Positions 14,793 to 31,093 of a DNA stretch of 64,000 nucleotides are shown in pieces. Source of the stretch: Streptomyces sp. P9-A2 (GTDB lineage: Bacteria; Actinomycetota; Actinomycetes; Streptomycetales; Streptomycetaceae). The stretch is taken from positions 6,324,001 to 6,388,000 of the forward strand of contig NZ_JAZIFX010000001.1 in NCBI RefSeq assembly GCF_036634175.1, written 5' to 3'. Numbering within the stretch: the stretch's first letter is position 1; every line of letters begins with the position of its first letter. Under the pieces are notes generated by a model, which saw only the letters and a list, made by a program, of their open reading frames with translations, was not told the DNA's origin and made no database searches. The position numbers and the translations under genes were made by a program.

Positions 14793-15935
14793 TTACGCGG
14801 CCGCCTGAGTCATACGGCGCAGCCGGGGGATGGGGATCCGGTAGTTGAGCGCCGCGGCCACACCACTGCCGTGGTCCTGTGACCAGCGCATCAGCGCCGG
14901 CCCGCCGCCGGGCTCCCCGTCGACGTACTCGGGTTCTCCGTCCAGCGGCAGATGGCCCACCGCCTTGAGGGTCAGTCCGAACTGCTCGGTCCAGAAGTAC
15001 GGCTGGAACTGGAGCGGTGGCGCCTCGTCGCCCAGGACCAGCGCCCTCGCGGCGACCTTCGCCTGTTCGATCGCGCTGCTCCAGAAGGGGACGCGGCGCA
15101 GACCGTTCGGAGTCCGGACGGCCGCGAGGTCGCCGACGGCCGCGACGTCGGGGCGGACGAGCCCGCGCGGGTCGACCGCGATGGCACCCTTCGCCGCGAG
15201 ACCCGTGTCCGCGAGCCACTCCGTGTTGGGTATGTCGCCGACGGCGGATACGAGCAGGTCCGCCTCGAGGACCGGGCCCTCCTGGAGGACGACCCGGGCG
15301 CTTTCCCCACGCCGTTCCAGCCGTGCCAGCTCGGTCTCGACGATGGTGAGCCCCAGCTCCAGTCCGGCCTTGACGAAGACACCGGCGAGGTGCGGACCGA
15401 GCTGGAGGATCAGTGGGGCCCCCTGGGAGACGAGGGTGACCCGGCAGCCCGCGGCCAGGCAGCCCGAGGCGATCTCCATTCCGAGCGGGCCTCCGCCGAC
15501 CACGACGACCGACGGCCGGTCCGCCAGCCGCTCGCGCAGAGCGAGGGCGTCGTCGAGCCCGCGCAGGGTGAGCTCCTCGGGAAGGTCGGACAGTCGTCGC
15601 GCCCGGGAGCCGGTGGCGAGGACGACGCGGTCGTACGGCAGATCCGTACCGTCGTCGAGCGTGACCAGCCGGCGGTCGAGGTCGAGTCCGGTGGCACGGA
15701 CGCCCAGGAGCTCGGTCGCCCCGTGGCCGGTCGGCGGGAGTTCGTGCGACGACAGGTCGTCGCCGTCGAGCAGGAGCGCCTTGGACAGGGCCGGACGGCT
15801 GTACGCCGGGTGCCGTTCGTCGCCGACGACGGTCAGTTCACCGTCGAAGCCGGCCTCGCGGAGCGTGTCGGCCGCGGTGAGCCCGGCGATCCCGTTGCCG
15901 ACGACGACGACGCGGTTCACGGTGCCGGTGCTCAT
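14793..15935 (-). CDS. FAD-dependent NAD(P)H ferredoxin reductase
   Basis: The 380-residue flavoprotein resembles putidaredoxin-type reductases. An N-terminal FAD motif GNGIAG (residues 13-18), an NAD(P)H motif VVVVGGGPLGMEIASG (about 146-161) and a VAAVGDLAA motif (about 270-278) that closes over FAD are visible. It passes electrons from NAD(P)H to the 3Fe-4S ferredoxin encoded just upstream, which then reduces the P450. The ATG at 15935 overlaps the ferredoxin stop by 4 bases. The length is typical for the family. With its neighbours this makes a complete class I P450 electron chain. Confidence 0.92.
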   Translation of the reverse strand: MSTGTVNRVVVVGNGIAGLTAADTLREAGFDGELTVVGDERHPAYSRPALSKALLLDGDDLSSHELPPTGHGATELLGVRATGLDLDRRLVTLDDGTDLPYDRVVLATGSRARRLSDLPEELTLRGLDDALALRERLADRPSVVVVGGGPLGMEIASGCLAAGCRVTLVSQGAPLILQLGPHLAGVFVKAGLELGLTIVETELARLERRGESARVVLQEGPVLEADLLVSAVGDIPNTEWLADTGLAAKGAIAVDPRGLVRPDVAAVGDLAAVRTPNGLRRVPFWSSAIEQAKVAARALVLGDEAPPLQFQPYFWTEQFGLTLKAVGHLPLDGEPEYVDGEPGGGPALMRWSQDHGSGVAAALNYRIPIPRLRRMTQAAA

Positions 15936-16120
15936 ACGACCCTCAGCGCCGCGACCGGGCACACACGGGCGGCGGCGTTCGCCAGGGCGATGTCGGCCCC
16001 GTCGACCTCCTCGTGGTCGAGGACGAGCTCGCCCTCGTCGTCGAGGTGCATGAGCTGCGGGGCGGCCTCCTCGCACAGGCCGTGGCCCTCACAGCGGGGA
16101 CGGTCCAGAACGATCTTCAT
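15932..16120 (-). CDS. 3Fe-4S ferredoxin, P450 redox partner
   Basis: The 62-residue protein has C10, C16 and C54-P as the cluster ligands, with H13 at the position often taken by a fourth cysteine. This CxxHxxC...CP pattern is typical of P450-partner ferredoxins that carry a 3Fe-4S cluster. The rest is acidic, as expected for docking on a P450. Start ATG 16120 overlaps the P450 stop by 4 bases, and the stop overlaps the reductase start by 4 bases. It shuttles electrons between the two in the cytoplasm. Confidence 0.93.
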   Translation of the reverse strand: MKIVLDRPRCEGHGLCEEAAPQLMHLDDEGELVLDHEEVDGADIALANAAARVCPVAALRVV

Positions 16121-17289
16121 GCGGGGATCACCTCCAGGACGGGGAGCTCTTCGATGCTCCGGGTGGTGTTGCTGGGAACGCGGACCTCGGGTCCGACGAC
16201 GAGGCGCTCGACGCGCCGGGAGAGCGCCTCGATCACGGCGTGGGCCTCCAGGCGGGCGAGTCCCTGGCCCGCGCAGCCGTGCGGGCCGTAGCCGAACGAG
16301 AGGTGGTCGACCGGATTGCGCTCGACGAGGAAGGAGTCCGGGTTCTCGTAGTGCCGGGGGTCGTGGTTCCCGGCGCCGAGCAGGATCGCGATCTGCGCGC
16401 CCGCCGGGATGACGGTCCCGTCGATGTCGACGTCCTTGGTGGCGCGTCGGCCCCAGGCGTGGATGGGCGTCCAGAAGCGCAGTACCTCGTTGAACGCCGC
16501 CGGCACCAGCGACGGGTTCTCGCGGACCAGGGCGAGCTGGTCGGGGTGCGAGCCGAAGAGGGCGACGATGTTGCCGATCGCCGCGATGGTGGTGTCGACG
16601 CCGGCGCCGAGGTACTGGTGGATGATGTGGCCGGCCGTGCCCGGCGGGATGGTGCCCCGTGCCTCGGCGTCGAAGATGCCGCGGCCCACGGACCCCTCGG
16701 CCAGGTCCTCGGCCTTGACCTGGGAGCACCATCCGTAGAGCTCACCGGCGATGGGGAAGTTCTCGGCCGTGCGCTGGTTCATCGGGCCGAGGACCTGCAT
16801 GGCCGCCTGCCCCCAGCGCAGCATGTTGTCGCGCACATGACCCTCGAAGCCGATCAGGTCCGCGACGACCTCCAGCGGGAACGCCCGGGCGAGGGCGTCG
16901 ATCGCCTCGAAGGAACCCTTCTCGACGAGCTCGGCGACGAGAGCGTCCGCCTTCGCCTCGATCTGCCCCTTCATGCCACGCAGCGCGCGCGGGGAGAGGT
17001 TCTCGGTGAGCGTGGCGCGCAGCTGGGTGTGCACCGGCGGGTCGGACGCGAGCGAGGTACCGGTGATCGCCTCGTTGGCCATCGGGTTGAAGGCGATCGA
17101 GGTCGAGGAGAACGACTCCCAGTCCGCCAGCGCGTCACGGATGACGTCGTACCGCGTCAGCGCGTAGACGTCGTTCTCACGGAGGTGGACGACGGGGCCC
17201 AGCTCTCGCAGTTCGGCGTAGACGGGGTAGGGGTCGACCAGGACGTCGTCGGCGAAGAGGTCGACGTCGGAGGCAGGGGGAGGAGTCAT
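16117..17289 (-). CDS. Cytochrome P450, possibly CYP199-like aromatic-acid oxidase
   Basis: The 390-residue protein has all P450 landmarks. The I-helix motif is GAGVDTT (about residue 230), the ExxR is EVLR (about 268) and the haem loop FGYGPHGCAGQG has the cysteine ligand at 339. An N-terminal membrane anchor is absent, so it is soluble. The start at 17289 (MTPPPASD) was chosen over a frame reaching 17349 whose extra residues look non-coding. The residue pattern around SDPPVHTQLRATLTENLSPR and the gene context suggest CYP199-type enzymes that O-demethylate methoxybenzoates. That substrate is inference; the class I electron chain is plain from the operon. Confidence 0.9.
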   Translation of the reverse strand: MTPPPASDVDLFADDVLVDPYPVYAELRELGPVVHLRENDVYALTRYDVIRDALADWESFSSTSIAFNPMANEAITGTSLASDPPVHTQLRATLTENLSPRALRGMKGQIEAKADALVAELVEKGSFEAIDALARAFPLEVVADLIGFEGHVRDNMLRWGQAAMQVLGPMNQRTAENFPIAGELYGWCSQVKAEDLAEGSVGRGIFDAEARGTIPPGTAGHIIHQYLGAGVDTTIAAIGNIVALFGSHPDQLALVRENPSLVPAAFNEVLRFWTPIHAWGRRATKDVDIDGTVIPAGAQIAILLGAGNHDPRHYENPDSFLVERNPVDHLSFGYGPHGCAGQGLARLEAHAVIEALSRRVERLVVGPEVRVPSNTTRSIEELPVLEVIPA

Positions 17290-17659
17290 GCCCCCAGTGA
17301 AGTGGCCGGTCTTACATCCAGCAAATGAATGATTCGCATGAAGTGACATGCAGGCGATTCATGCTTCAGCCGGGGCCCGTAACAGGTCATCCTGTCCGAC
17401 GGTAGCCGCCGAGCTGGGCCTGGCGTGCCCAAATCACTCTCCCCCGCATTGTTTTTTCAGGATGTTCATTTCATTGACGCCATGTAAACCAAATGGTTAA
17501 TGTCGCCACAACCGACGGGAGCGGTGCATCCCGCGCCGGGCGTGCGAGGCGGGCACGAGTGCCAAGAGCACCCGCGCATCCCGTGTACCCCGTGCGCCCC
17601 GTCCTCGAACCGGTGCCGGCGTCGACCCGCCGACCCTCCAGAAGTAAGAGAGAGCCACC
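17290..17659. promoter_or_regulatory. Divergent promoter region, P450 operon and FAD monooxygenase
   Basis: These 370 bases separate two divergent oxygenase units. They hold AT-rich patches (17316-17360 and 17440-17500) unusual for this genome. One short dyad, TAAACCA-AA-TGGTTAA at 17485-17500, has 6 of 7 arm positions matched and is a candidate LysR site. No gene is seen. Confidence 0.5.
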
Positions 17660-19044: not shown

Positions 19045-20646
19045 TCAGTTCCTCCGCCGCACGAGGGAGACGGTGAACGGGTGGCTCGGGGAGGTCAGGA
19101 TCCGTTGGGCCGGTCCCTGTTCGACGACTTCGCCGGCGTCCAGGACGGCGATGCGGTGGGCCATGGCGGCCGTGTCCAGGTCGTGGGTGATCAGGACCAG
19201 GGACAGGTCGTCGCGGTCGCGGACCAGCGCGGTGAGGAGGCCGAGGATGTCTCGGCGGGTGATCGTGTCGAGGCCGGAGGTGATCTCGTCGCAGACGAGG
19301 ACGCGGGGTCGGGCGAGCAGGGCACGGGCGAGTGCGGCGCGCTGTAGTTCGCCGCCGGAGAGCCGGCCGGGGTGCCGTCGCACCAGGTCCTTTGTGAGTC
19401 CGAGGCGGGCCAGGGTGCTCAGGGCCTCCCGCGTCGCCGTGTCCGCGTCGGCACGGCGCAGGCGGACCGCGGTGCGGGCGACCTGGTGCAGGACGGGGCG
19501 GTGTTCGTCGAAAGCGGCGTGCGCGTCCTGGAAGACGTACTGCACGGCCGCGAGCTGTGCGCGGCTGCGGTCACGCACGCTGTCCGGCAACGGGGTGCCG
19601 TCCAGGAGGACGTCGCCGTCGTGGTCGCGGTGGAGGCCGGCGAGGCATCGGGCGAGGGTGGTCTTGCCGCTGCCGGAGCGGCCGACGACGGCGAGGCACT
19701 CGCCCGGATACAGGTCGAGCCCGGGGGCACGCAGCACCACGGTCGTGCCGTGTGCGCCGTCGCGGTGGCGGGCGGTGAGGCCGCGTACCCGTAGGACGGG
19801 CTGACCGGCACCGGCCGGACCGTCCGGTGCCGGGCGGCCCGGTGAGGGCAACTCCTTCTGCTCGCCGAACAGTTCGCGAGTCCAAGGATGCCGGGGCGTG
19901 AGCCGGAGGCGCTGGGCCGGGCCCGACTCGACGACCCGGCCCGCCCGCATGACCACCACGTCGTCGGCGAGTGACCGGACGACGTCCAGGTCGTGGCCGA
20001 TCAGCACGACGGCGATGCCGCGGCCGGCGACGGTCGCGAGGTGCTCGACGACGCGGCTCTTGGTCAGGGCGTCCTGACCGGTGGTGGGCTCGTCGGCGAC
20101 GATGACGCGCGCGCCGAGCAGCAGCGCCTGGGCGAGGACGACGCGTTGCTGCTGACCACCGGAGAGCTGGTGCGGGTGGCGTCGCAACAGGGCTTCGGCG
20201 TTCGGTAGTTGGGCCTCCGCGAGGGCGTGCAGGACGCGTGCGCGGGCCTCCGCCCGGCGCTGCCCGCGCGGAAGGTGGCTCACCTGGACGCGCGCGATGT
20301 CGGTCAACAGCGCGGAGACACGGCGGGCGGGGTTGAGGACGGCGGCCGGGTGCTGGGGGACGTGACCGACGAGGCCGTCGGCCCTCACGCGTACGTCGCC
20401 GGTGACATGGGCGCCGGCCGGGTACTCACCGAGCAGGGCGAGGCCGGTGGTGGTCTTGCCGCTGCCGGAAGCGCCGACCAGCGCCGTGACCTTGCCGGGC
20501 AGCACCCGCAGGCTCACTCCGTCGACGATCGCCCGGCCGTCGATCTCGACGCGCAGGTCGCGGATCTCGGCCACGGGATCCACGGTGGTGGCCTTGTGGT
20601 TCGCGGTGGTGGCCTTGTGGCTCACGGGCGTGGCCTTGTGGTTCAC
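19045..20646 (-). CDS. Fused double ABC ATPase of a peptide/nickel-type importer
   Basis: The 533-residue protein fuses the DppD- and DppF-like ATPases. Each half has Walker A (GASGSGKTTT at 58-67; GRSGSGKTTL near 325), a signature (LSGGQQQRV; LSGGELQRA) and Walker B (VIVADEPTT; VLVCDEITSG). It energises uptake through the two permeases encoded upstream. GTG 20646 overlaps the DppC-like stop by GTGA. The first 21 residues are three imperfect NHKATxV repeats from a DNA repeat that includes the start. It is the last gene of the ten-gene leftward operon. Uptake of a metal chelate rather than a peptide is inferred from context. Confidence 0.9.
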   Translation of the reverse strand: MNHKATPVSHKATTANHKATTVDPVAEIRDLRVEIDGRAIVDGVSLRVLPGKVTALVGASGSGKTTTGLALLGEYPAGAHVTGDVRVRADGLVGHVPQHPAAVLNPARRVSALLTDIARVQVSHLPRGQRRAEARARVLHALAEAQLPNAEALLRRHPHQLSGGQQQRVVLAQALLLGARVIVADEPTTGQDALTKSRVVEHLATVAGRGIAVVLIGHDLDVVRSLADDVVVMRAGRVVESGPAQRLRLTPRHPWTRELFGEQKELPSPGRPAPDGPAGAGQPVLRVRGLTARHRDGAHGTTVVLRAPGLDLYPGECLAVVGRSGSGKTTLARCLAGLHRDHDGDVLLDGTPLPDSVRDRSRAQLAAVQYVFQDAHAAFDEHRPVLHQVARTAVRLRRADADTATREALSTLARLGLTKDLVRRHPGRLSGGELQRAALARALLARPRVLVCDEITSGLDTITRRDILGLLTALVRDRDDLSLVLITHDLDTAAMAHRIAVLDAGEVVEQGPAQRILTSPSHPFTVSLVRRRN

Positions 20647-21518
20647 GGGCGTGCGCCCTTCTCTGTCCGGCTCCGGACGGTTGCGCCCGGAGCGTCGGTC
20701 CTGGTCGAGGGGACCGCGGCGCCCCGTCTCCCGCCCTTGTCCAGCGCGGCGTCGAAGAGGAGATTCGTCCCCGTCGTCAGGGCGACGATCAGCAGGGCGG
20801 GGACGAGCACGGCCCATGGCTGGACGAACAGGCCGGTGCGGTTGCGGTCGACCATGACCGCCCAGTCGGCGGCGTCGGGCGCCACGCCGACGCCGAGGAA
20901 CGCGGCCGTGGCGACCAGGTAGAGCACACCGGTCAGCCGGGTTCCGGCATCGGCGGCCAGGGTGCGCAGCATGGAACGGCCGACGTAACCGACGCCCATG
21001 CGCCACCAGGTCTCGCCCTGCATGCGCAGGGCCTCGACCGCGGGCCGGGCGGCGGCCTCCGCGGCGGCGGCCCGCACGAGACGGGCCGCGTCGGGCACGT
21101 TGGCCACGGCGACCAGCAGGGCGAGACCGGCGGGGCCGGGGGTGTACACGGTGGCGGTCAGCAGGATCAGCAGCAGCGACGGGACGGCGAGCAGCACGTC
21201 CAGGGGCCGCATCAGCAGCTCCTCCAGCAGGCGGTGGTGGGTGAGCGCGCCGGCCAGGCCGACGGGCAGGGCCACGAGGTAGGCCAGGGCGGTCGCGGCG
21301 AGAGCGGTCAGCACGACCGGCCGGCCGCCGTGCAGCACCTGCCGCCAGACGTCGCGCCCGACGAAGTCGGTACCGAGCCAGTGTCCGCCGCCCAGGGTGA
21401 AGGAAGCGGCCCGGGGACCCGGATCGCCCGCGAGAACGGGGCCGAGCAGGGCGAGGACCAGAGGGACGGCCAGGATCGTGAGGCCGAGTGCGAAGCGGCC
21501 CGGGCGCCATGTCCTCAC
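20643..21518 (-). CDS. ABC permease, DppC/NikC type
   Basis: The 291-residue inner-membrane protein has one N-terminal helix (about residues 8-28), a periplasm-facing loop with WLGTDFVGRDVWRQV (the DppC/OppC landmark, about 48-62) and five further hydrophobic segments. The EAA-type cytoplasmic loop is ALRMQGETWWRMGVGYVG. The GTG start at 21518 overlaps the DppB-like stop by GTGA, and the stop overlaps the ATPase start. It pairs with the DppB-like protein to form the channel. The last 35 residues are hydrophilic and variable. Confidence 0.9.
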   Translation of the reverse strand: MRTWRPGRFALGLTILAVPLVLALLGPVLAGDPGPRAASFTLGGGHWLGTDFVGRDVWRQVLHGGRPVVLTALAATALAYLVALPVGLAGALTHHRLLEELLMRPLDVLLAVPSLLLILLTATVYTPGPAGLALLVAVANVPDAARLVRAAAAEAAARPAVEALRMQGETWWRMGVGYVGRSMLRTLAADAGTRLTGVLYLVATAAFLGVGVAPDAADWAVMVDRNRTGLFVQPWAVLVPALLIVALTTGTNLLFDAALDKGGRRGAAVPSTRTDAPGATVRSRTEKGARP

Positions 21519-22468
21519 GCGGCCACCCCCGCTCGGGGTGCGAGCCGGTGGGCGACCAGGTCGGCGCCCAGGTTCAGTACGACGGTCAGGACGCCGAACA
21601 CCACCGTCAGGCCCTGGACCACGGGTACGTCGCGTTCGGCGACGGCGCCCAGCAGAACGGTGCCGAGTCCGGGAATCACGTACAGGGCCTCCACGACGAC
21701 GACACCGCACAGCAGCCAGTCGACTGTGCGGGCGATTTGCTGGGCGGCGGGGGCCAGCGCGTTGGGCAGCGCGTGCGTGTACCGGACGCGGGCGCCGGAC
21801 ACGCCGTAGCGGCGGGCCTGCGCCACGTACGGGGAGGCGAGCGCGTCGATCATGCCGGCGCGCACCATCCGCGCCAGCGAGCACACGGGCCGGGACAGCA
21901 GGACCAGGACGGGCAGGACGAGCGCGGCCGGATGGGCGAGCAGGTCGGTGCCGTAGCCGACGGCGGTCGGCGGCAGCCAGCCCAGTCGCAGGGAGAGGAC
22001 GGTCACCAGCAGGACCCCGAGGGCGAACTCCGGGACGGCGTACACGGCGAGCGTCGCGGAGCTGATCACCCGGTCGACGAACCGTCCTTCGTGGCGGGCG
22101 GCCAGCATCCCGAGCCCGAAACCGGCCGGTACCAGCAGGACCACGGTCAGCGCGGCCAGCAGCAGGGTGGGGCCGAAGCCGTCGGCGATGTACCGGCCGA
22201 CCGGGCGGCCGGAAACGAGGGAGGTGCCGAAGTCGCCGTGCGGCAGACCCGCCGCCCAGTCGGTCAGCCGCTCCCACGCGGGCCGGTCCAGCCGCATGGC
22301 CTCGCGGATGGCCTCGACGCGGGCCGGGTCGGGCTGGTCCCCGGCCAGGGCGACCGCGGCGTCGCCCGGCAGCGCCTCGGTGAGTGCGAAGACCAGCAGC
22401 ACCACGGCCGCGGTCTGCAGGAGACCGAGGAGCAGCCGCCGGGCGACGAAGGAGCGCAGTCCGCTCAC
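21515..22468 (-). CDS. ABC permease, DppB/NikB type
   Basis: The 317-residue membrane protein shows the DppB pattern: a first helix at residues 9-30 (LLLGLLQTAAVVLLVFALTE), a large external loop with GDFGTSLVSGRPV (about 77-89), then five helices. The EAA loop is YGVSGARVRYTHALPNALAP. GTG 22468 overlaps the binding-protein stop by GTGA. Family members import dipeptides, nickel or opine-type metal chelates; sequence alone does not separate these. The adjacent biosynthetic genes favour a metal chelate. Confidence 0.9.
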   Translation of the reverse strand: MSGLRSFVARRLLLGLLQTAAVVLLVFALTEALPGDAAVALAGDQPDPARVEAIREAMRLDRPAWERLTDWAAGLPHGDFGTSLVSGRPVGRYIADGFGPTLLLAALTVVLLVPAGFGLGMLAARHEGRFVDRVISSATLAVYAVPEFALGVLLVTVLSLRLGWLPPTAVGYGTDLLAHPAALVLPVLVLLSRPVCSLARMVRAGMIDALASPYVAQARRYGVSGARVRYTHALPNALAPAAQQIARTVDWLLCGVVVVEALYVIPGLGTVLLGAVAERDVPVVQGLTVVFGVLTVVLNLGADLVAHRLAPRAGVAA

Positions 22469-24072
22469 GTGAGCCACACCCTGTCGAAGCGGGCCCAGTC
22501 GAGGGTGTTGGCGGGCGCCTTCGTATCGACGCCCCGGACGGTACGCGCGGTGGCGATGATCCAGTCCGCGAAGCCCCAGACCAGGAAGCCGCCCTCGCCG
22601 TACAGACGGCGCTGCATGCGCTCGTGCACGGCGGCGCGTTCTGCCCTGTCGCGGGTGGACTGGGCCTGCCGGTAGAGCGCGTCGAAGTCCTTGTGCCGCC
22701 ACTTGGTGGCGTTGGTGGAGGAGTCGGTGAGCAGCCGCTGGGAGATGTGGGCCTCGATCGGCATGGCGCCGGAGCGGTAGCAGCACAGGGTGCCGCGGTC
22801 GAGGACGTCGCTCCAGTAGGAGTCCTTGCTGCCCATCCGCACCTCGACCGTGACGCCCGCCTTCCTCGCCTGGTCGCGGAAGATGCTCGCGGCCTCGGTG
22901 AACCCGGCGGCGACGGCCGAGGTGTCCAGGGCGACCTTCAGCTTCTCGGCGCCGGCCCGCTTGAGCAGGGCGCGGGCCCGCTCGAGGTCCTGTCCACGCT
23001 GCGGCAGGCCGTCGGCGTAGTACTCGTAGCCCTTGCCGAACAGGTCGTTGCCTACCTCGCCCGCGCCGGACAGGGCGCCGTCGACGAGCTCCTCGCGGTC
23101 GGCGATGAGGAAGAACGCCTGGCGCACCCGCTCGTCGTCGAAGGGCGGCCGGTCGGTCTTCATGCAGAACGCCTGCATGGTGCTGCCCCGCAGCCGCACG
23201 ATCTCGACTTGGCCCTTGCCCTCGTGGGCACGGGCGGTGGCGGGGTTGAGCTCGTGGGCGTACTCGATCTGCCCGCCGAGCAGCGCGTTGACGCGGGCCG
23301 ACTCCTCGTTGGCCACGACGAACTCGATCTCGTCGAGGTGCGGGGCCCCCTCCCAGTAGTCGTCGTAGCGACCGAAGACCGCCGAACGGCCCGGGGTGAA
23401 CGACACGAAGCGGAACGGACCGGAACCGATCGGTTTCCTGTCGAACCCGGTGGCGTTCCCGGGCACGATGTACGCGCCGAACGCGGCCAGGATGTTGGGG
23501 AACTCGGCCGTGGGCCGCTTGAGGACGAACTCGACGGCGCGTTCGCCGGTGGCGCGGCTGGCGTCGAGGTCGATGGGTTCCAGGGACGCCTTGGCGCGGA
23601 ACGCCCGCTTCGGGTCGGCGATGCGGCGGTAGCTGTACAGCACGTCCTCGGCGGTGACCGGCCTGCCGTCGTGGAAGGTCGCCCTGCGCAGGGTGACCTG
23701 CCAGCGGTCGAGCGTCCTGTTGGACTCCCACCTCTCGGCCAGGCGGGGCTGGGCCGACAGGTCGGCACCGTGGTCGGCGAGCTTGTCGAACAGGGCCTTG
23801 GCGCGGGCGACGTCGACGAACAGGTTGGCCAGGTGCGGGTCGAGGGTCTCTCCGGCGCCGCCGCCCGCGAACGCGGCGCGCAGCCGCCCGCCCCGCTTCG
23901 GTGAGCCACCGCCCTTGCCCGCATCGTCGCCGGAACCGGTGCCGGTGCCGCCGCATCCGGCCAGGGTGAGTGCGCCGAGCGAGGCGGCGCCGGTCGCGGC
24001 GAGGAAGCCGCGGCGGCGCAGTCCCGGGGAGCGATGCGGCGAGGGGAGGGGACGGGGGGATGTGTCACGCAT
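22465..24072 (-). CDS. Family-5 solute-binding lipoprotein (peptide/nickel/metallophore)
   Basis: The 535-residue protein has a Tat-like signal ([20 protein letters not shown], residues 18-37) ending in a lipobox LAGC with C40. The mature part follows the SBP_bac_5 fold, including [20 protein letters not shown] and [20 protein letters not shown]. It should capture the substrate outside the cell and deliver it to the two permeases. AGGAAA lies 6-11 bases before the ATG. It is preceded by a 420-base repeat-filled gap, so it may be expressed from the operon promoter and from a local one. In Gram-positive opine-metallophore systems the binding protein (CntA) belongs to this same family. Confidence 0.9.
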
Positions 24073-24492
<420 letters not shown>

Positions 24493-25317
24493 TCAGGCGG
24501 ATCCGGTCAGGTGGATCGGGTTCAGGCGGGCCACCACGTGCAGCCGGTCGGCGTCGGTGGTGCGGCCGGGGAGGCGGCCTTCGTGCCACGCCGGCGCCGT
24601 GCGAGGGCCCGGCCCGTCGTGGAGTTCCAGGACCTCGAAGCCGTGCGCGGCCAGGAAGTGGCGCAGTTCCTGGGGGAACAGCAGCCGCCACGCGGAACGC
24701 TGTTCGACGGGCTCCGATCCGTCGTCCGCGTTCCAGACGCGTGTACGGTGCAGCAGTTGGTCCGTACGGTTCACCATGAGGGTGGTCGTGGACCGGTGGA
24801 CGGTGCCCCGCCAGGTGAACTCGTCGACTCCGGGCGTGTCGAGCAGGTCGGTACGGCCGAGGAAGTACGCGCCGTTGCGCATCTCCGCGACCAGCAGCGC
24901 ACCCGGGGTCAGGGCGCGGCGGCAGGAGGACAGGAACCCGTCGAGCTGGTCGTTGGTGTGGCAGTACAGCAGGGTGCTGTCGAGGCACACCACGGCGTCG
25001 AACACTCCCTGCCCGAGGTCGAATCCGTGCAGGTCGGCACGGACGTACCCGGGGCCCGGATGGTGGGTGCGGGCGTGCGCGAGCATCGCCTCGGAGAGGT
25101 CCACGCCGGTGACCCGGCGGCCGGCGCCGTGCAGGTGGGCGGCGTCGCGGCCGGTGCCGCAGCCCACGTCCAGCACCCGCGGGCCCGCCCCGTGCCGCCG
25201 CAGGCAGTCCTCCGTCCAGCGCCCGGCCAGCCGGTCGGGGTCGGGGAAGCGGGCCTCGTACAGCTCGGGGTGGTCCGTGAGCAGGTTGGGCGCGCTCGCG
25301 CCCGTTTCGGGGGTCAT
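24493..25317 (-). CDS. Class I SAM-dependent methyltransferase
   Basis: The 274-residue protein has motif [14 protein letters not shown] (residues 48-60), the acidic VTGVDLSEA (about 68-76) that binds the SAM ribose, and a typical CLDSTLLY strand. It belongs to the broad Methyltransf_25/11 type; the C-terminal beta-rich part ([18 protein letters not shown]) resembles small-molecule N- or O-methyltransferases. ATG 25317 overlaps the MFS stop by 4 bases. In this operon it probably tailors the small molecule made by the ligase, PLP enzyme and epimerase. The acceptor is unknown. Confidence 0.88.
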
Positions 25318-26624
25318 GTCGGTGTCCCTTTTCGGACTTCCCGGACTTCCCGCGCTCCCCGGACCGTCGCGGGGGCGGCGGACTTCGGCGGCGCGGGCAG
25401 CGACCCGAGCCGGCGCAGCCGGGCCACACCGAGTGCGGAGACGAGCCCGAACAGCGCGCAGCACGCCCACGGGAGCCATTCGGCGCCGCCGTGCCGCCCG
25501 GTGTCCATGGCCCGGCCGACGACGGTGTTGCCCACCGCGGCGGCGACCCCCGAGACGACGTAGAAGATCCCGAAGTAGGTGCCGGTGAGCTCGGGGCGGC
25601 CGAAGCCGGGGATCAGCTCCATCACGAACGGCTGGGCGACCATCACCCCGACGTGCAGCAGCAGGGCCCCGGCCAGTACGGGCAGGGCACGCAGCGCCGC
25701 GTCGGCCGCGCCGCCAGGAGCACCGCCGCCCGTGCCCGTGACCAGGACGGGCGGCAGGAAGGCCAACGACATCAGGGCCAGTCCCACCGAGATCCAGCGG
25801 GCCCGGTCCCCGCGTCGCTTGAGGGCGCGGGTGATGCGCAGCTGGAACGCGAGACCGGCGAGAGTGCCGACGACGAAGACGAGCCCGGCGGCACCGTTCC
25901 AGCCGGTGGCCTGCCGCGCTCCGTCGGGCAGCAGCAGGTACAGCTGGTTCTCCAGGGTGAACATCCCGACCATGGCGAGCGCGAAGGCGAGGAAGGCGCG
26001 GTTGCCGAGCACCTCGCGCCAGTCCGCGAGGACGGAGCCCCGGCTCGGGGCGACCTCCCGGGCGGGCAGCACCAGGGCCTGCGCCACGGTGAGGACGGCG
26101 AAGATCCCGGCGGCGGTCAGGGCCGACGTACGGAAGTCCACGAGCAGCAGCGCGCTTCCCAGCAGCGGCCCCACCAGAGCTCCCGTGGTGGCGAACACGT
26201 TGAACAGGGCGAACGCCTCGGCCCTGCGCTCGTCGGCCTCCTGGGCGATGTAGGCGCGGACGGCGGGGTTGAACAGGGCCCCCGCGAACCCGCTGAGGAC
26301 GGACGCGGCGAGCAGGACGGCCAGGTCGTCGCCGAGCGCGAACAGCGCGAAGCCGAGGGTGCGCAGGGCACAGCCGGCGATGATGACGCCCCGTGCGCCG
26401 AGCCGGTCGGAGGCGGAGCCGCCGATGAGGAACAGACCCTGCTGGCTGAGGTTGCGCACGCCGAGGACGACGCCGACGACGACGGCCGACAGGCCGAGGT
26501 TCTCGGTGAGGTGGGTGGCGAGGTAGGGGACGAGGAGGTAGAAACCGGTGTTCACACCGAACTGGTTGACCAGCAGGAGCCGGACCGCGAGCGGGAACCG
26601 GCGTATCTCATGCCAGGTCTTCAC
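25314..26624 (-). CDS. Major facilitator superfamily exporter
   Basis: The 436-residue protein has about twelve hydrophobic segments and an MFS loop-2/3 motif (GGSASDRLGARGVIIAG, about residues 62-78). GTG 26624 was chosen because GGGAGG stands 6-8 bases upstream; it overlaps the epimerase 3' end by 17 bases. A longer frame to 26738 lies inside the epimerase. Placed between biosynthesis and ABC-uptake genes, it most likely exports the operon product, as CntE does for staphylopine. Drug efflux is the alternative reading. Confidence 0.87.
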   Translation of the reverse strand: MKTWHEIRRFPLAVRLLLVNQFGVNTGFYLLVPYLATHLTENLGLSAVVVGVVLGVRNLSQQGLFLIGGSASDRLGARGVIIAGCALRTLGFALFALGDDLAVLLAASVLSGFAGALFNPAVRAYIAQEADERRAEAFALFNVFATTGALVGPLLGSALLLVDFRTSALTAAGIFAVLTVAQALVLPAREVAPSRGSVLADWREVLGNRAFLAFALAMVGMFTLENQLYLLLPDGARQATGWNGAAGLVFVVGTLAGLAFQLRITRALKRRGDRARWISVGLALMSLAFLPPVLVTGTGGGAPGGAADAALRALPVLAGALLLHVGVMVAQPFVMELIPGFGRPELTGTYFGIFYVVSGVAAAVGNTVVGRAMDTGRHGGAEWLPWACCALFGLVSALGVARLRRLGSLPAPPKSAAPATVRGAREVREVRKGTPT

Positions 26625-26712
26625 GGCGCGCCTCCCGCCCTGTCCGCAGCCTGTTCCCACGGCGCGCCTCTGGCCCTGTCCGCAGCCTGTCTTCCCGGCG
26701 CGCTTCTCGCGG
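26608..26712 (-). repeat. Direct repeats in the 3' end of the epimerase gene
   Basis: CTGTCCGCAGCCTGT occurs twice about 40 bases apart, within imperfect units containing GGCGCGC. They encode the Arg-rich tail and overlap the ribosome site and start of the MFS gene, so unit changes could alter MFS translation. Confidence 0.6.
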
Positions 26713-27741
26713 TTCGACGCCCAGTCCGGGCAGGCCACTCGCCCGTACGAAGCCGTCCTCGCCGCCGATGCCGGTCCACGGGTCGTGGGCGAGCAGCAGG
26801 TGTCCGTCGAGGTCGGTCCAGCGGGCCCGGCCGGCGAGGTGCACGGCGGGCGCGAGTCCCAGGCTGCTGGCGGTCAGGCAGCCCAGCATCAGCTCCGTGC
26901 CGCTGCCGTCGAGCAACTCGGTGATGCGCAGGGCCGCGTGCACGCCGCCGCACTCGGCGAGCTTGACGTTCACGCCGTGGACGCGCCCGGCCAGACGGCG
27001 TACGGCCTCCAGGTCCATGGCGTCCTCGTCGGCGATGACCGGCAGCGGTGAGCGCTCGGCCAGGGAACCCAGTGCCTCGGGGTCGCCCGGAGCGAGGGGC
27101 TGTTCGACGGCCTCGACGCCGAGTTCGGCGAACCGGGGCAGCAGTGCCGTCGCCTGCCTCATGGTCCACGCGCCGTTGGGGTCGAGGAGCAGCCGGGCCC
27201 GGGGCGCCGCGTCGCGGACGACGCGGACGCGCTCCACGTCCTCCTCGGGGTCGGGCAGCCCCGCCTTGACCTTGATCACTTCGAAGCCGTTCGTCATGAG
27301 GGACCGGGCCTGCGCCGCCGCGTGGGCGGGGGAGGTGATGCCGATGGTGCGGGCGGTGGCCGCGACCGGGGGGTGCGCGGAGCCCAGGAGCCGGTGGACG
27401 GGACTGCCCGCGCGCCTGCCGACGAGGTCGAGCAGGGCCGCCTCGACGGCGGCGGTCACGGCCGGGGGAGCGCTCTCACCGGGCGGCCCGCCCGTCCGCA
27501 GCGACTCCAGGGCGCTCTCCGGGTCGGGGAAGCGGACCAGGTCCCTCCCCGCGGCGGCGAGGAGACGTCCGAGGGTCTCGGTGTCGAGGCGGTGGTGGAC
27601 GCTGGTGACGGCCTCGCCGTGGCCGGTCGTGCCCTCGTGCTCGATGCCCAGCCACACGGCGTCACGGGCGGACATCGTCGAGCGGGAGATGCGCAGCGGC
27701 TCGGTGAGTTCGAGGCGCACGGTGCGTCGGCCGGCCTTCAC
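26608..27741 (-). CDS. Enolase-superfamily dipeptide-epimerase-like enzyme
   Basis: The 377-residue protein shows the muconate-cycloisomerase/dipeptide-epimerase catalytic set. These are KVK in FEVIKVKAG (about residue 150), the metal ligands in LLLDPNGAW, VEQPL and IADEDAM, and the second lysine in VNVKLAECGG. The family abstracts an alpha proton, epimerising amino acids within dipeptides such as L-Ala-D/L-Glu. That fits an upstream ATP-grasp amino-acid ligase. GTG 27741 overlaps the PLP gene by GTGA. The last 35 residues are an odd Arg/Glu-rich tail (REARREDRLRTG repeated) from a DNA repeat and lie beyond the barrel. Confidence 0.87.
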   Translation of the reverse strand: MKAGRRTVRLELTEPLRISRSTMSARDAVWLGIEHEGTTGHGEAVTSVHHRLDTETLGRLLAAAGRDLVRFPDPESALESLRTGGPPGESAPPAVTAAVEAALLDLVGRRAGSPVHRLLGSAHPPVAATARTIGITSPAHAAAQARSLMTNGFEVIKVKAGLPDPEEDVERVRVVRDAAPRARLLLDPNGAWTMRQATALLPRFAELGVEAVEQPLAPGDPEALGSLAERSPLPVIADEDAMDLEAVRRLAGRVHGVNVKLAECGGVHAALRITELLDGSGTELMLGCLTASSLGLAPAVHLAGRARWTDLDGHLLLAHDPWTGIGGEDGFVRASGLPGLGVEPREARREDRLRTGPEARRGNRLRTGREARREDLA

Positions 27742-28826
27742 GGCGTTCCTTCCGGACGAGGAGCGAACTCCACCGGGCCGGTGACGCGCGTGCACCGCGT
27801 CCAGCCGGTGGCCTCGGCCGCCCGCGGGTGCCGGATCTCGACGGGCCGGGTGGCCGCGGCGGCCGGGTCGAGGCCGTGGGCGGCGGCGAAGTCGTCGTCG
27901 TAGACGGTGCCGAGGTAGCGGTGCGGTCCGTCGGGGAAGACGGTGGCGACGACCGCGCCGGGATGGACACGGGCCGCCCAGGCCGCCACGCGGGCGACCG
28001 CGCCGGTGCTCCAGCCGCCGCTGACGAAACTCTCGCGGGCCAGACGGCGACAGCTGTCCACGGCCTCGGCGGGGCCGACCCAGTGCACCTCGTCGAAGGC
28101 GCCGTGGGCGACGTTGCGCGGGTGGATGCTGCTGCCGAGGCCGCGCATCAGCCGGGGCCGTGCGGGCTGTCCGAAGATGGTGGAGCCGATGGAGTCGACG
28201 CCGATCAGCCGCAGCGCGGGCCAGTGGCGGCGCAGCGGGCCGATGATGCCGGCGCTGTGCCCGCCGGTGCCGACACTGCACACGAGGATGTCCAAGTGGT
28301 CTAGCTGGGAAGCGAGTTCGGTGGCCAGTGAGGCGTAGCCGGCCGTGTTGTCGGGGTTGTTGTACTGGTCCGGCCAGTAGCCGTCGGGCAGGACGGCGAG
28401 CAGTTCGCGCAGCCGGGCCAGCCGGGCGGCCTGCCAGCCGCCGTGCGGCGCGGGCCGGTCCACGATCTCCAGCCGTACCCCGTGGGCGCGCAGCAACTGC
28501 CTCATGGAAGGCTCCAGTTCGCTGTCGCCGACCAGCACGACGGGATGCCCCAGGGCCTGCCCCGCGAAGGCGAGCCCGATGCCGAGCGTGCCGGAGGTGG
28601 ACTCCACCACCGGTGCGCCGGGCAGCAGTTCGCCGCGTTCCCGGGCGCCCCTCAGCATGGAGACGGCGGCCCGTGCCTTCATGCCGCCCGCGGCGAGTCC
28701 TTCGAGCTTGGCCCAGAACCCGGGATGCGGTCGGGGCAGGCCGGCGGTGACGTGTACGACGGGCGTGCGTCCGAGCAGGGTGAACAGTTCCGGGCGGGCG
28801 GCGGGGCGTACGGCGGTCGCGGTCAC
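27738..28826 (-). CDS. SbnA-like PLP-dependent cysteine-synthase-fold enzyme
   Basis: The 362-residue enzyme has the fold-type II PLP pattern: a lysine in EGLAAGGMKARAAVSML (about residue 48) for the Schiff base, the phosphate/substrate loop VESTSGTLGIG (about 70-80) and GTGGHSAG (about 186). The ESxSGNxGIG loop is typical of SbnA, which joins O-phosphoserine and glutamate toward diaminopropionate for staphyloferrin B. Here it may make a diaminopropionate-type or similar C-N or C-S linked amino acid. No SbnB (ornithine-cyclodeaminase-like) partner is seen. GTG 28826 overlaps the DUF364 gene by GTGA. Confidence 0.85.
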   Translation of the reverse strand: MTATAVRPAARPELFTLLGRTPVVHVTAGLPRPHPGFWAKLEGLAAGGMKARAAVSMLRGARERGELLPGAPVVESTSGTLGIGLAFAGQALGHPVVLVGDSELEPSMRQLLRAHGVRLEIVDRPAPHGGWQAARLARLRELLAVLPDGYWPDQYNNPDNTAGYASLATELASQLDHLDILVCSVGTGGHSAGIIGPLRRHWPALRLIGVDSIGSTIFGQPARPRLMRGLGSSIHPRNVAHGAFDEVHWVGPAEAVDSCRRLARESFVSGGWSTGAVARVAAWAARVHPGAVVATVFPDGPHRYLGTVYDDDFAAAHGLDPAAAATRPVEIRHPRAAEATGWTRCTRVTGPVEFAPRPEGTP

Positions 28827-29671
28827 CGGGTGCCTCCCGGGCGGCCGGCGCGGTAGCGGTGGACGGTGCCGGGGCCGCCGTCCAGCCAGAAGAAGGGGTA
28901 CGGCTCCGCGCACACCGCGCTCACCCCGTGGCCCAGGAAGCGGGGCAGTACGGCACTGCCGGTCTGGGCGAACACCACCAGTTGCTTGCCTCGCCGCAGC
29001 GCGTGCTCCCGCAGCGGCTCGAAGGTGCCGTTGCCCAGTGTCATCCCGGACACCAGCAGCGCGTCGCAGCGGCCGGCCGCGCCGAGGGCGTCGGTGACGA
29101 CCGTCTCGCCCCACTCCGTGAGACCGCCCTTGAGGTCGCACGGGACATGGTCCAGGCCTCGTGAACGCAGCGCCTCCAGCAGTGAGTTGACGACGCCGAC
29201 CACGAGCACCGTCGCCCCGGGCGGCAGGTCGAGCAGCTCGACCACGGCCCGCGCCCTGGCCCGGGACTTCTCCAGTGACGTCCCGGCCGGCAGGGGCACG
29301 GCCCGGGCCCCGTTGGCCGGGGTGTGCGGGGCGGTGTGCATGAGGTAGGCGTCCAGCGCGGCGACGCGCACCGCGGGCAGTGGGTGCTCCAGCAGGCGGG
29401 CCACGTCCGCGCCGACGCAGTCCTCCACCGCGCCGTCGGGCAGGGTGCCGGGTTCCACCGCGCAACTGCCGACGGCCTCGGCCAGCCGCAGGCTGAGGAC
29501 CTCGTTGCGGTAGCCGCCGCCGCGCCCGTCGTGCCGTACGGCCTGCCGGGTGGTGAAGGCCATGGAGATCCGCCGCGCGGCCGGGTCCGGGCCGAGCTCA
29601 CCGGCACGGGCCCGCGCCAGGAGCGCGTCGTACGCCGCCACACGGGCGGGCGCCGGGGTGGCGGAGGTCAT
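28823..29671 (-). CDS. DUF364/DUF4213 Rossmann-like protein (putative metal-chelation family)
   Basis: The 282-residue protein has an N-terminal enolase-like cap (DUF4213, about residues 1-110) and a Rossmann-like DUF364 domain (about 120-275) with GATVLVVGVVNSLLEAL and DALLVSGMTLGNGTFEPLRE. Pfam names DUF364 a putative heavy-metal-chelation domain. I am not aware of an established reaction. It overlaps the ATP-grasp gene by 4 bases at 29668-29671. The C-terminal FFWLDGGPGTVHRYR resembles the end of other family members. It is the least understood enzyme of the operon and the best candidate for new chemistry. Confidence 0.8.
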   Translation of the reverse strand: MTSATPAPARVAAYDALLARARAGELGPDPAARRISMAFTTRQAVRHDGRGGGYRNEVLSLRLAEAVGSCAVEPGTLPDGAVEDCVGADVARLLEHPLPAVRVAALDAYLMHTAPHTPANGARAVPLPAGTSLEKSRARARAVVELLDLPPGATVLVVGVVNSLLEALRSRGLDHVPCDLKGGLTEWGETVVTDALGAAGRCDALLVSGMTLGNGTFEPLREHALRRGKQLVVFAQTGSAVLPRFLGHGVSAVCAEPYPFFWLDGGPGTVHRYRAGRPGGTR

Positions 29672-30924
29672 CGGATCACCAGCCCGGAGTGCAGTTCGCC
29701 GAGCAGGGTCTCGACCCGTGCGCGGGCGCCGGGCCCTTCGGCGTCGCCCACCATGACGTGGCCGAGGTACTCGTTGTTGCTGCCCGCCGCCCGCACCTGT
29801 GTGCCCGGTTCGGCGAGCTGTACCTCCAGCACGTCCGGCACGGTTCGCAGCCGATTGTCGTCCAGGGCTTCGAGCGTGCCCGTGGTCCGCGGCACGAGGA
29901 AGCCGACGGCGGCGCTGGCGAGTCCGGTGGCCGTGTGCCGCAGATCGGGTGCGCGGCCCAGGGAGACGTCCACGAAGGCGGCGGCGAGGTCGATGCCGGT
30001 GACGTGGCGTACGAGTTCGGTGATGCGGTTTCCGGCGGGCCGCGGGTTGACCTCGACCACGCGCGGTCCGGCGGAGGTCAGCTTGATCTCGGTGTGCGCC
30101 ACCGTGGCGTCGGTCAGGCCGAGCGCCTTGAGCGCGCCGAGCGCGGTGTGTCCGGCGGCCTCCGCGTCCGCGGCCGACAGGGCCGCGGGGAACATGTGGC
30201 CGGTCTCGATGAACGCGGGTGCTCCGCCGACGCTCTTGTCGGTCATGCCGACGACGTGGACCGCGCCCGCGTGCGAAACCGTCTCGACGCTCACCTCCGG
30301 GCCGTCCAGGAGCTCTTCGAGCAGGACGACGGGTGCCCGCCGCTGCCCGCGCGCGTTGACCGGGAAACCGGCCAGTTCCCGTACGGCGGAGGCAAGTTGC
30401 TCCTCATCGTCCACCCGCCGCACGTACATGCCCGCACACAGGTCGACGGGTTTGACCACCAGCGGATAGCCGATCTCCCGAGCCGCCCGCGCGAGGTCGG
30501 CCCACGCCTCGTGCACCGCGAACCGTGGCTGGGGCAAACCGGCTTCGGCCAGGACGCGACGGGTGGCGTCCTTGCGGCAGGCGGTGCGGACCGACTCGGC
30601 ACCCGGGCCGGGCAGTCCGAGCCGCTCGGCAGCCCGCGCCACCGCCGGCAGGTAGTAGTCGCAGGAGCTGATCACCCCGTCGAACCCGAACACCGTGTGC
30701 AGCCACTCCACTTGGGGCAGCAGGGCTTCGGCGTCATTGGTGTCCGCCGTGATCACGTTGCGCGCACCGAGCAGGGGGTGTGCCGGGGCCCCGGGTGTCG
30801 AGCGCAGGTAGTGGTGCAGGTCGCGGGTGAGGAACGTGAACTCGTGTCCGCCCTCCCGTATCGCCCGTGGCAGCAGCCTGCTCATTGATCCGACCCAGCT
30901 CTCGATCACCAGCAGATGAGCCAC
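29668..30924 (-). CDS. ATP-grasp carboxylate-amine ligase
   Basis: The 418-residue protein is an ATP-grasp ligase. It has an N-terminal pre-ATP domain, a YPLVVKPVDLCAGMYVRRVD nucleotide-binding strand-loop (about residues 150-169), VVLLEELLDGPEVSVETV (about 198-215) and the metal-binding VVEVNPRPAGNRITELV (about 298-314). This arrangement is typical of L-amino-acid ligases that join two amino acids or amino and hydroxy acids through an acyl phosphate. GTG 30924 is preceded by AAGGGGAG. It is the first gene of the ten-gene operon, and the Zur/Fur-like site lies about 105 bases upstream. Substrates are unknown. Confidence 0.88.
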   Translation of the reverse strand: MAHLLVIESWVGSMSRLLPRAIREGGHEFTFLTRDLHHYLRSTPGAPAHPLLGARNVITADTNDAEALLPQVEWLHTVFGFDGVISSCDYYLPAVARAAERLGLPGPGAESVRTACRKDATRRVLAEAGLPQPRFAVHEAWADLARAAREIGYPLVVKPVDLCAGMYVRRVDDEEQLASAVRELAGFPVNARGQRRAPVVLLEELLDGPEVSVETVSHAGAVHVVGMTDKSVGGAPAFIETGHMFPAALSAADAEAAGHTALGALKALGLTDATVAHTEIKLTSAGPRVVEVNPRPAGNRITELVRHVTGIDLAAAFVDVSLGRAPDLRHTATGLASAAVGFLVPRTTGTLEALDDNRLRTVPDVLEVQLAEPGTQVRAAGSNNEYLGHVMVGDAEGPGARARVETLLGELHSGLVIR

Positions 30925-31025
30925 AACTCCCCTTTTCCTGTTGTCCCTTGCGGCGCGCTCCGCCGGCGCCGGGGCAGCCCGACGGCACCCGTGAGGAGGT
31001 GTCGGACCGCACGATGCACACCATA

Positions 31026-31048
31026 TCGCTAATGATTTTCATTGTCAG
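31026..31048. promoter_or_regulatory. Zur/Fur-type operator candidate
   Basis: The core AATGATTTTCATT (31031-31043) reads AATGA-AAA-TCATT leftward, a perfect 5-base dyad in an AT-rich island. It resembles actinobacterial zinc-uptake-regulator boxes (TGAAAATGATTTTCA-like) and Fur-family boxes in general. It stands about 105 bases before the ATP-grasp start and can repress the leftward operon. The metal sensed cannot be told from this motif alone. Confidence 0.6.
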
Positions 31049-31093
31049 TTACCTTGGGGGCTCATCGCGCCGACCCCGCCAGGGGTCGCCGCG

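Follow-up and report, generated by a model that had tools for sequence, protein, structure and literature searches.

What is made, moved and bound by the products of a ten-gene operon of Streptomyces sp. P9-A2 that joins biosynthetic enzymes, a major facilitator superfamily (MFS) transporter and an ATP-binding cassette (ABC) importer behind one promoter-like element? The operon (19045-30924, minus strand) lies in a window of 64,000 nucleotides, the whole stretch of DNA analysed here (contig NZ_JAZIFX010000001.1, positions 6,324,001 to 6,388,000). The host chromosome is that of an 8.39-Mb Streptomyces genome, and the DUF364 gene of the operon is 94% identical to that of S. prasinus. A first-pass annotation made from the window alone had proposed a metallophore operon with zinc or nickel as possible cargo. 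Genome comparison favors the part of this proposal in which a metallophore is made, exported and reimported under a zinc regulator, while the nickel idea was not sustained. We consider that the operon quite probably encodes a zincophore system repressed by Zur.

Each of the ten genes reads as an open frame from a start codon to a single terminal stop (Table 1). Seven of the nine junctions overlap by 4 bases and the epimerase/MFS junction overlaps by 17 bases, in keeping with the one-strand operon of mostly 4-base overlaps first described, and Pfam supported each of the ten gene families that had been named. Relatives were collected in two sets: a main set of 80 loci, taken from 553 confirmed relatives and fetched by the DUF364 gene, and a second set of 40 loci, 25 of which hold the operon or part of it. 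Some genomes are common to both. The search for a conserved neighborhood that had been proposed for this locus found all ten genes in the same order in 73 of the 80 relatives, with six more cut by a contig end, and in 22 of the 25 close-class loci of the second set, where L054 is cut by the fetched stretch. A close DUF364 gene (at least 67% identity) was found in 69 of 295 sampled Streptomyces genomes, with the P9-A2 genome counted; the presence of all ten genes was verified for just a part of these 69. Any DUF364 match was found in 123 of the 295; of the 54 outside the close class, 53 are 37-43% identical and one is 29% identical. A sample of 396 genomes from the phylum gave DUF364 matches in 8, six of them Streptomyces (P9-A2 included).

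Because both locus sets are anchored on DUF364, importers that lack the synthesis genes cannot show up in either. We therefore also used the binding protein as the anchor, in a test of plasmids for which 20 of 643 records were listed. Among the matches listed, all five records at least 50% identical in the binding protein carry all ten genes, so that in this limited sample ABC genes separate from the biosynthetic genes, which the first-pass annotation had named as an outcome against its proposal, were not seen. Rhodococcus plasmids account for two of the five, with ten genes in the same order at 43-57% identity per gene. The next record among the matches listed (L226, a Streptomyces plasmid, 48% in the binding protein) has no DUF364 match. 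Its importer genes, 43-49% identical, were observed beside a nonribosomal peptide synthetase (NRPS) gene, an iron-type importer and ferredoxin-like genes, and this is perhaps a coelibactin-like locus.

Zinc control is suggested by the region upstream of the ligase gene. The AATGA-AAA-TCATT element seen there in the first-pass annotation forms the Zur-like box TGACAATGAAAATCATTAGCGATA, which is embedded in a promoter-like pair (hexamers assigned by eye) that ends 95 bases upstream of the ligase start. The box matches 10 of the 11 fixed positions of the 15-bp Zur motif of S. coelicolor and 12 of 15 in the 21-bp actinobacterial znuA motif, both as given in PMC5472717. It was found in all 79 main-set relatives with upstream sequence (18-27 of 28 consensus positions) and in 24 of 24 relatives of the second set. 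A weight matrix trained on operon boxes only gave matches of 25.9 and 15.2 bits directly before the ligase gene in the Rhodococcus plasmids.

The same box type occurs at zinc-type transporter genes of P9-A2. Allowing at most three mismatches, the 21-bp motif was found at 11 strand-wise places in this genome and at one in a reversed control. The 11 include the window promoter; the top place falls in the divergent promoter that serves an ABC-3-type permease gene, and a ZnuA-family gene lies some 2.4 kb away. With the matrix, this divergent promoter was the highest-scoring site of its 9-kb stretch (22.7 bits), and the highest-scoring ones in the other stretch were two sites (7.9 and 5.8 bits) that precede a second ZnuA-family gene; the 99.9th percentiles of the scores in the two stretches were -9.8 and -8.8. 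As background, the second-best site in each of the 80 loci had a median of 4.4 bits, with 6 of 80 reaching 12 and a highest value of 27.1, and some of the high ones may be real boxes. That a matrix built on operon boxes also picks out the zinc-type ABC and znuA-like promoters points to Zur as the likely repressor, and by the predicted box in its promoter the operon would belong to the Zur regulon.

The importer ties the operon to a siderophore locus. S. scabiei 87-22 carries this operon at 9.09 Mb and, at 0.59 Mb, a locus of nine genes in 11 kb with arginine-hydroxylase-like, SbnB-like, LysA-like and SbnA-like genes, a multidrug and toxic compound extrusion (MATE) transporter and ABC genes. 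By gene number, length and content we identified the latter as the EDHA locus (scab_5231-5311, PMC8914351); PMC10702961 gives the aes genes of EDHA as four. The S. scabiei cluster table in PMC8914351 has no SCAB_81xxx entries, and the SCAB numbers of the present operon were not mapped. A tree was built from 19 family-5 binding proteins, those of the window, L048 and L050 and 16 from S. scabiei; a further S. scabiei gene was recovered as fragments and omitted. The window protein and its orthologs were sister to the EDHA-locus protein with support of 100/99. In BLAST the window protein scored 268 bits against the EDHA one and at most 95.5 against 14 other S. scabiei family-5 proteins, which were chosen as family 5 and not by ligand. 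Within this limited sample the clustering with dipeptide receptors that the first-pass annotation had considered was not seen. The permeases and ATPase are also homologous to those of the EDHA locus, whose ATPase is likewise a fused double one.

The operators of the two loci differ. Iron boxes were scanned for with what we take to be the iron-box sequence. Between divergent genes of the EDHA locus there are iron-box-like sites (14 and 13 of 19 positions), and a scan of this locus with the box matrix gave no Zur box (best 4.5 bits). In contrast, this operon in S. scabiei has a Zur box of 48.8 bits and lacks an iron box, the best site in the 21 kb scanned matching 12 of 19 positions and lying elsewhere in the stretch; upstream of the window operon there is no iron-box-like site (best 9 of 19).

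These comparisons bear on the metal. The same machinery could serve iron, as for EDHA, or nickel for a neighboring urease, and the former is in line with an importer related to that of the EDHA siderophore locus. For nickel, a divergent urease adjoins the operon in the window, the solved relatives include NikA, and the top NCBIfam models for the binding protein, both permeases and the ATPase describe nickel importers, though none reaches its cut-off (nickel_nikA 83 versus 393 bits, Opp5A_nikA 149 versus 600, nikD 290 versus 319). However, scans upstream of the window operon, which covered iron and zinc boxes, gave no iron-box-like site, the boxes match promoters of zinc-type transporters, and the urease is not a conserved neighbor. 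Among the 80 relatives, of which 68 have more than 3 kb upstream, it adjoins the operon only in S. prasinopilosus (L114), and it was found beside the operon in none of the 40 loci of the second set, 25 of which hold the operon or part. The nickel idea thereby loses its support from urease and the link was set aside. An iron or nickel metallophore is in our view unlikely.

The enzymes suggest what kind of chelator a zincophore operon of this type might make. The best solved relatives of the ligase are the L-amino acid ligase BL00235 and BacD, and its motif EVNPRPAGN is kept in 80 of 80 relatives. The SbnA-like pyridoxal phosphate (PLP) synthase matches PLP_SbnA_fam (4.4e-73, 246 bits against a cut-off of 350) and SbnA in the Protein Data Bank (6e-43), is 35% identical to the EDHA-locus enzyme, and retains K50 in 80 of 80 and STSGTLG in 79-80 of 80 relatives. 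The enolase-superfamily enzyme matches the dipeptide epimerase 3jva at 2.4e-37. Its residues K157, K159, D187, E213, D238, K260, D310 and D312, presumably the KxK motif, the metal ligands D/E/D, the second-half lysine and the DxD motif, are kept in 75-77 of 77 relatives, and by these residues it would qualify as a dipeptide epimerase. The methyltransferase motif LDxGCGTGRD is present in 73-74 of 74, with V51 varying. No NRPS or IucA/C (NRPS-independent siderophore, NIS) synthetase was found by Pfam among the ten genes of the operon. Together, the ligase and the dipeptide epimerase suggest a dipeptide product with one inverted center, built on an SbnA-type amino acid. Near 10.0 Mb in S. scabiei, a separate two-gene unit (L201:10089-12541) encodes an SbnA-like enzyme (58%) and an MFS protein; no strong Zur box was found at this unit (best 8.2 bits).

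Another explanation is that zinc starvation induces the synthesis of a bacilysin- or aspergillomarasmine-like dipeptide that acts as an antibiotic or inhibits metalloenzymes, and that the ABC genes serve to import nutrients or to recycle this product. The closeness of the ligase to BL00235 and BacD-type ligases, the dipeptide type of the epimerase, and a best MFS model for multidrug efflux (below cut-off) fit such a product, but an importer co-conserved in one operon and sister to that of a siderophore locus does not, and a zinc operator is better suited to a scavenger; we regard this explanation as quite unlikely. Plain peptide scavenging, in which the operon would take up dipeptides and its ligase and epimerase would recycle cell-wall peptides, is scarcely probable: the L-Ala-D/L-Glu epimerases among the epimerase's solved relatives and the family-5 binding protein would suit it, but the SbnA-like enzyme, the MFS protein and the ligase are ill-suited to recycling, a zinc operator is present, and the binding protein groups with the EDHA one and not with the 14 other S. 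scabiei family-5 proteins.

DUF364 is annotated by Pfam solely as putative heavy-metal chelation. An AlphaFold2 model of the window protein (predicted local distance difference test, pLDDT, 90) best matched the DUF364 structure 3npg (E 7.7e-7), with weaker matches to enolase-type and PLP-aminotransferase folds. A second, distant DUF364 family has an SbnA-like gene in all 12 loci examined and a box of 17-41 bits in all 12 (those of L038 and L039 being seen in their extensions L221 and L222); the box stands directly before the first gene in the five checked (L032, L033, L036, L221 and L222). A partial Pfam check of this family found a GHMP kinase in L032 and L036 and a PhyH-type dioxygenase in L038, and the importers are FecB-type in L032 and L036 and family-5, at about 50%, in L038 and L039. 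At the remoter DUF364 loci L044-L046 no strong box was found (8-12 bits). DUF364 occurs in the operon as well as in a second Zur-linked family with FecBCD or family-5 importers, and may on this account be a new enzyme of metal handling or biosynthesis; the operon gives it a testable biological setting. By eye, the Streptomyces locus L032 combines a zinc ABC permease with the distant DUF364/SbnA-like cluster and its FecB-type importer, together with another set of ligase, epimerase and MFS genes that is about 30% identical.

From the computed gene content, order and conservation, the operator common to zinc-type transporters and the importer kinship with the EDHA locus, we infer the direction of MFS transport, the order of enzyme steps, the product class, zinc as cargo and a role for DUF364. 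At low zinc, Zur would come off its site within the promoter, and transcription of the whole operon would follow. The SbnA-like enzyme would probably join activated serine and an amine partner to give a diaminopropionate-type or N-substituted amino acid, which the ATP-grasp ligase would couple to a second amino acid. The epimerase would then invert one stereocenter of this dipeptide, and the methyltransferase, and perhaps DUF364, would finish or handle the product. The MFS protein would export the chelator, and the binding protein, two permeases and double ATPase would return the zinc complex to the cell. It is a tentative proposal, slightly less likely than not, that the zincophore is of a new biosynthetic class, an epimerized and methylated pseudo-dipeptide whose synthesis involves no NRPS, NIS or nicotianamine chemistry, with DUF364 as the new enzyme. 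The joint claim that SbnA-type enzyme, L-amino-acid ligase and dipeptide epimerase together make this pseudo-dipeptide could hold, and we advance it just as provisionally.

Several observations weigh against a zincophore system. Synthesis and importer genes can part: in L184 of the main set and L062 of the second set everything from the MFS gene onwards is missing and the first enzymes are kept without the importer, and L034 keeps the first enzymes without the methyltransferase and ABC genes. The Embleya plasmid L225 has DUF364, no methyltransferase or binding protein was found there by alignment, and its ligase alignment covers the first 37 residues only. No match shown for the ten proteins reached its NCBIfam cut-off, the best models of the importer parts being the nickel ones, and the fold model of the binding protein is poor (mean pLDDT 41.5). 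The 15-bp Zur motif alone is unspecific, with 127 genome places within one mismatch and 16 in the control. The motif TGAAAATGATTTTCA, which we assumed as a further Zur motif, gave four weak genome sites at up to two mismatches, with one in the control, and missed the window box. Finally, the product, its metal binding and the expression of the operon are predictions from genome comparison.

Table 1. Genes and upstream elements of the operon in window coordinates
Feature	Position	Strand	Evidence
Promoter-like pair with embedded operator	31020..31048	-	CTGACA 31048-31043, 17-nt spacer, TATGGT 31025-31020
Zur-like box TGACAATGAAAATCATTAGCGATA	31024-31047	-	Sequence and matrix, 45.6 bits
ATP-grasp L-amino-acid ligase, GTG start	29668..30924	-	Pfam ATP-grasp_4 and LAL_C2
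DUF364 protein, Rossmann-like	28823..29671	-	PF04016, E 5.5e-6
SbnA-like PLP synthase	27738..28826	-	Pfam PALP; NCBIfam PLP_SbnA_fam
Enolase-superfamily enzyme, dipeptide-epimerase-like	26608..27741	-	Pfam MR_MLE_N/C
MFS transporter, presumed exporter	25314..26624	-	MFS_1, PF07690, 4.8e-35
S-adenosylmethionine-dependent methyltransferase	24493..25317	-	Methyltransf_25, PF13649, 4.2e-19
Spacer between methyltransferase and binding-protein genes, 420 bases	24073..24492	.	Mostly GC-rich tandem repeats, periods 6, 14, 18, 25, 45, 81
Family-5 solute-binding protein	22465..24072	-	SBP_bac_5, PF00496, 6.8e-76
ABC permease, NikB/DppB type	21515..22468	-	PF00528 (BPD_transp_1), PF19300
ABC permease, NikC/DppC type	20643..21518	-	PF00528 (BPD_transp_1)
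Fused double ABC ATPase, GTG start	19045..20646	-	Two ABC_tran stretches in one chain

The spacer before the binding-protein gene is 420 nt in the window; in 72 of the 80 relatives the corresponding gap has an inferred median of -7.5 and a maximum of 133 nt. Read by eye, the signal of the binding protein has twin arginines and a lipobox-like cysteine. Beyond the operon, genes that by eye resemble those of a ferredoxin reductase and a cytochrome P450 lie at 14793-17349, and P450 and FAD oxidoreductase genes are likewise annotated near the operon on an S. angustmyceticus plasmid. In 19 of the 80 relatives a gene for a GNAT acetyltransferase is found close to the operon (for example L172:7937-8527), in 18 of the 19 on the opposite strand and in 12 at most 320 bp from the ligase start; the window has no match. 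This is possibly an optional tailoring or release enzyme.

No description of the operon was found in open PubMed Central papers, a search in which subscription journals and preprints mostly fall outside. Staphylopine and pseudopaline (Cnt) systems pair a small amino-acid chelator with an exporter, and that of staphylopine has a family-5 ABC importer as well. This operon is similar in those respects, but its matches to the CntD, CntF, CntC and CntA models stay below cut-off and no nicotianamine-synthase-like, CntK-like or opine dehydrogenase family was found among its ten genes by Pfam and NCBIfam. Membership of the staphylopine family was rejected on these missing genes, which agrees with the different chemistry predicted at first. 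BacD of bacilysin and other L-amino acid ligases share the ATP-grasp family of the ligase, and differ in context and regulation. Coelibactin, a Zur-controlled streptomycete zincophore, is alike in its control, whereas it is predicted to be an NRPS product (PMC5472717, PMC6103462). The [S,S]-EDDS of Amycolatopsis japonicum is a small chelator under Zur control whose synthesis needs neither NRPS nor NIS enzymes (PMC6103462, PMC9252823, PMC4993170), a likeness that comes from published descriptions and not from gene comparison. EDHA (S. scabiei scab_5231-5311; Streptomyces sp. MA5143a) shares the SbnA-like enzyme, family-5 binding protein, two permeases and fused double ATPase. The SbnB-like dehydrogenase, LysA-like decarboxylase, arginine-hydroxylase-like enzyme, MATE transporter and iron-box-like sites are features of EDHA only, whereas the ligase, epimerase, DUF364, methyltransferase, MFS protein and Zur box are found only in this operon. 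By Pfam, neither an SbnB-like dehydrogenase nor a PLP decarboxylase is among the ten genes, and since these two EDHA biosynthetic enzymes are missing we did not file the operon as an EDHA-type member. It thus resembles the EDHA and EDDS systems in logic and, for EDHA, in its importer. Many Streptomyces and some relatives carry the operon, and it probably makes, releases and reimports a small amino-acid-like zinc chelator; given the close DUF364 marker in 69 of 295 Streptomyces, it may be a common route of zinc acquisition in soil actinomycetes. Set beside EDHA, the operon suggests that iron chelators and zinc chelators are both served by a single lineage of importers, between which regulator and biosynthesis were exchanged.

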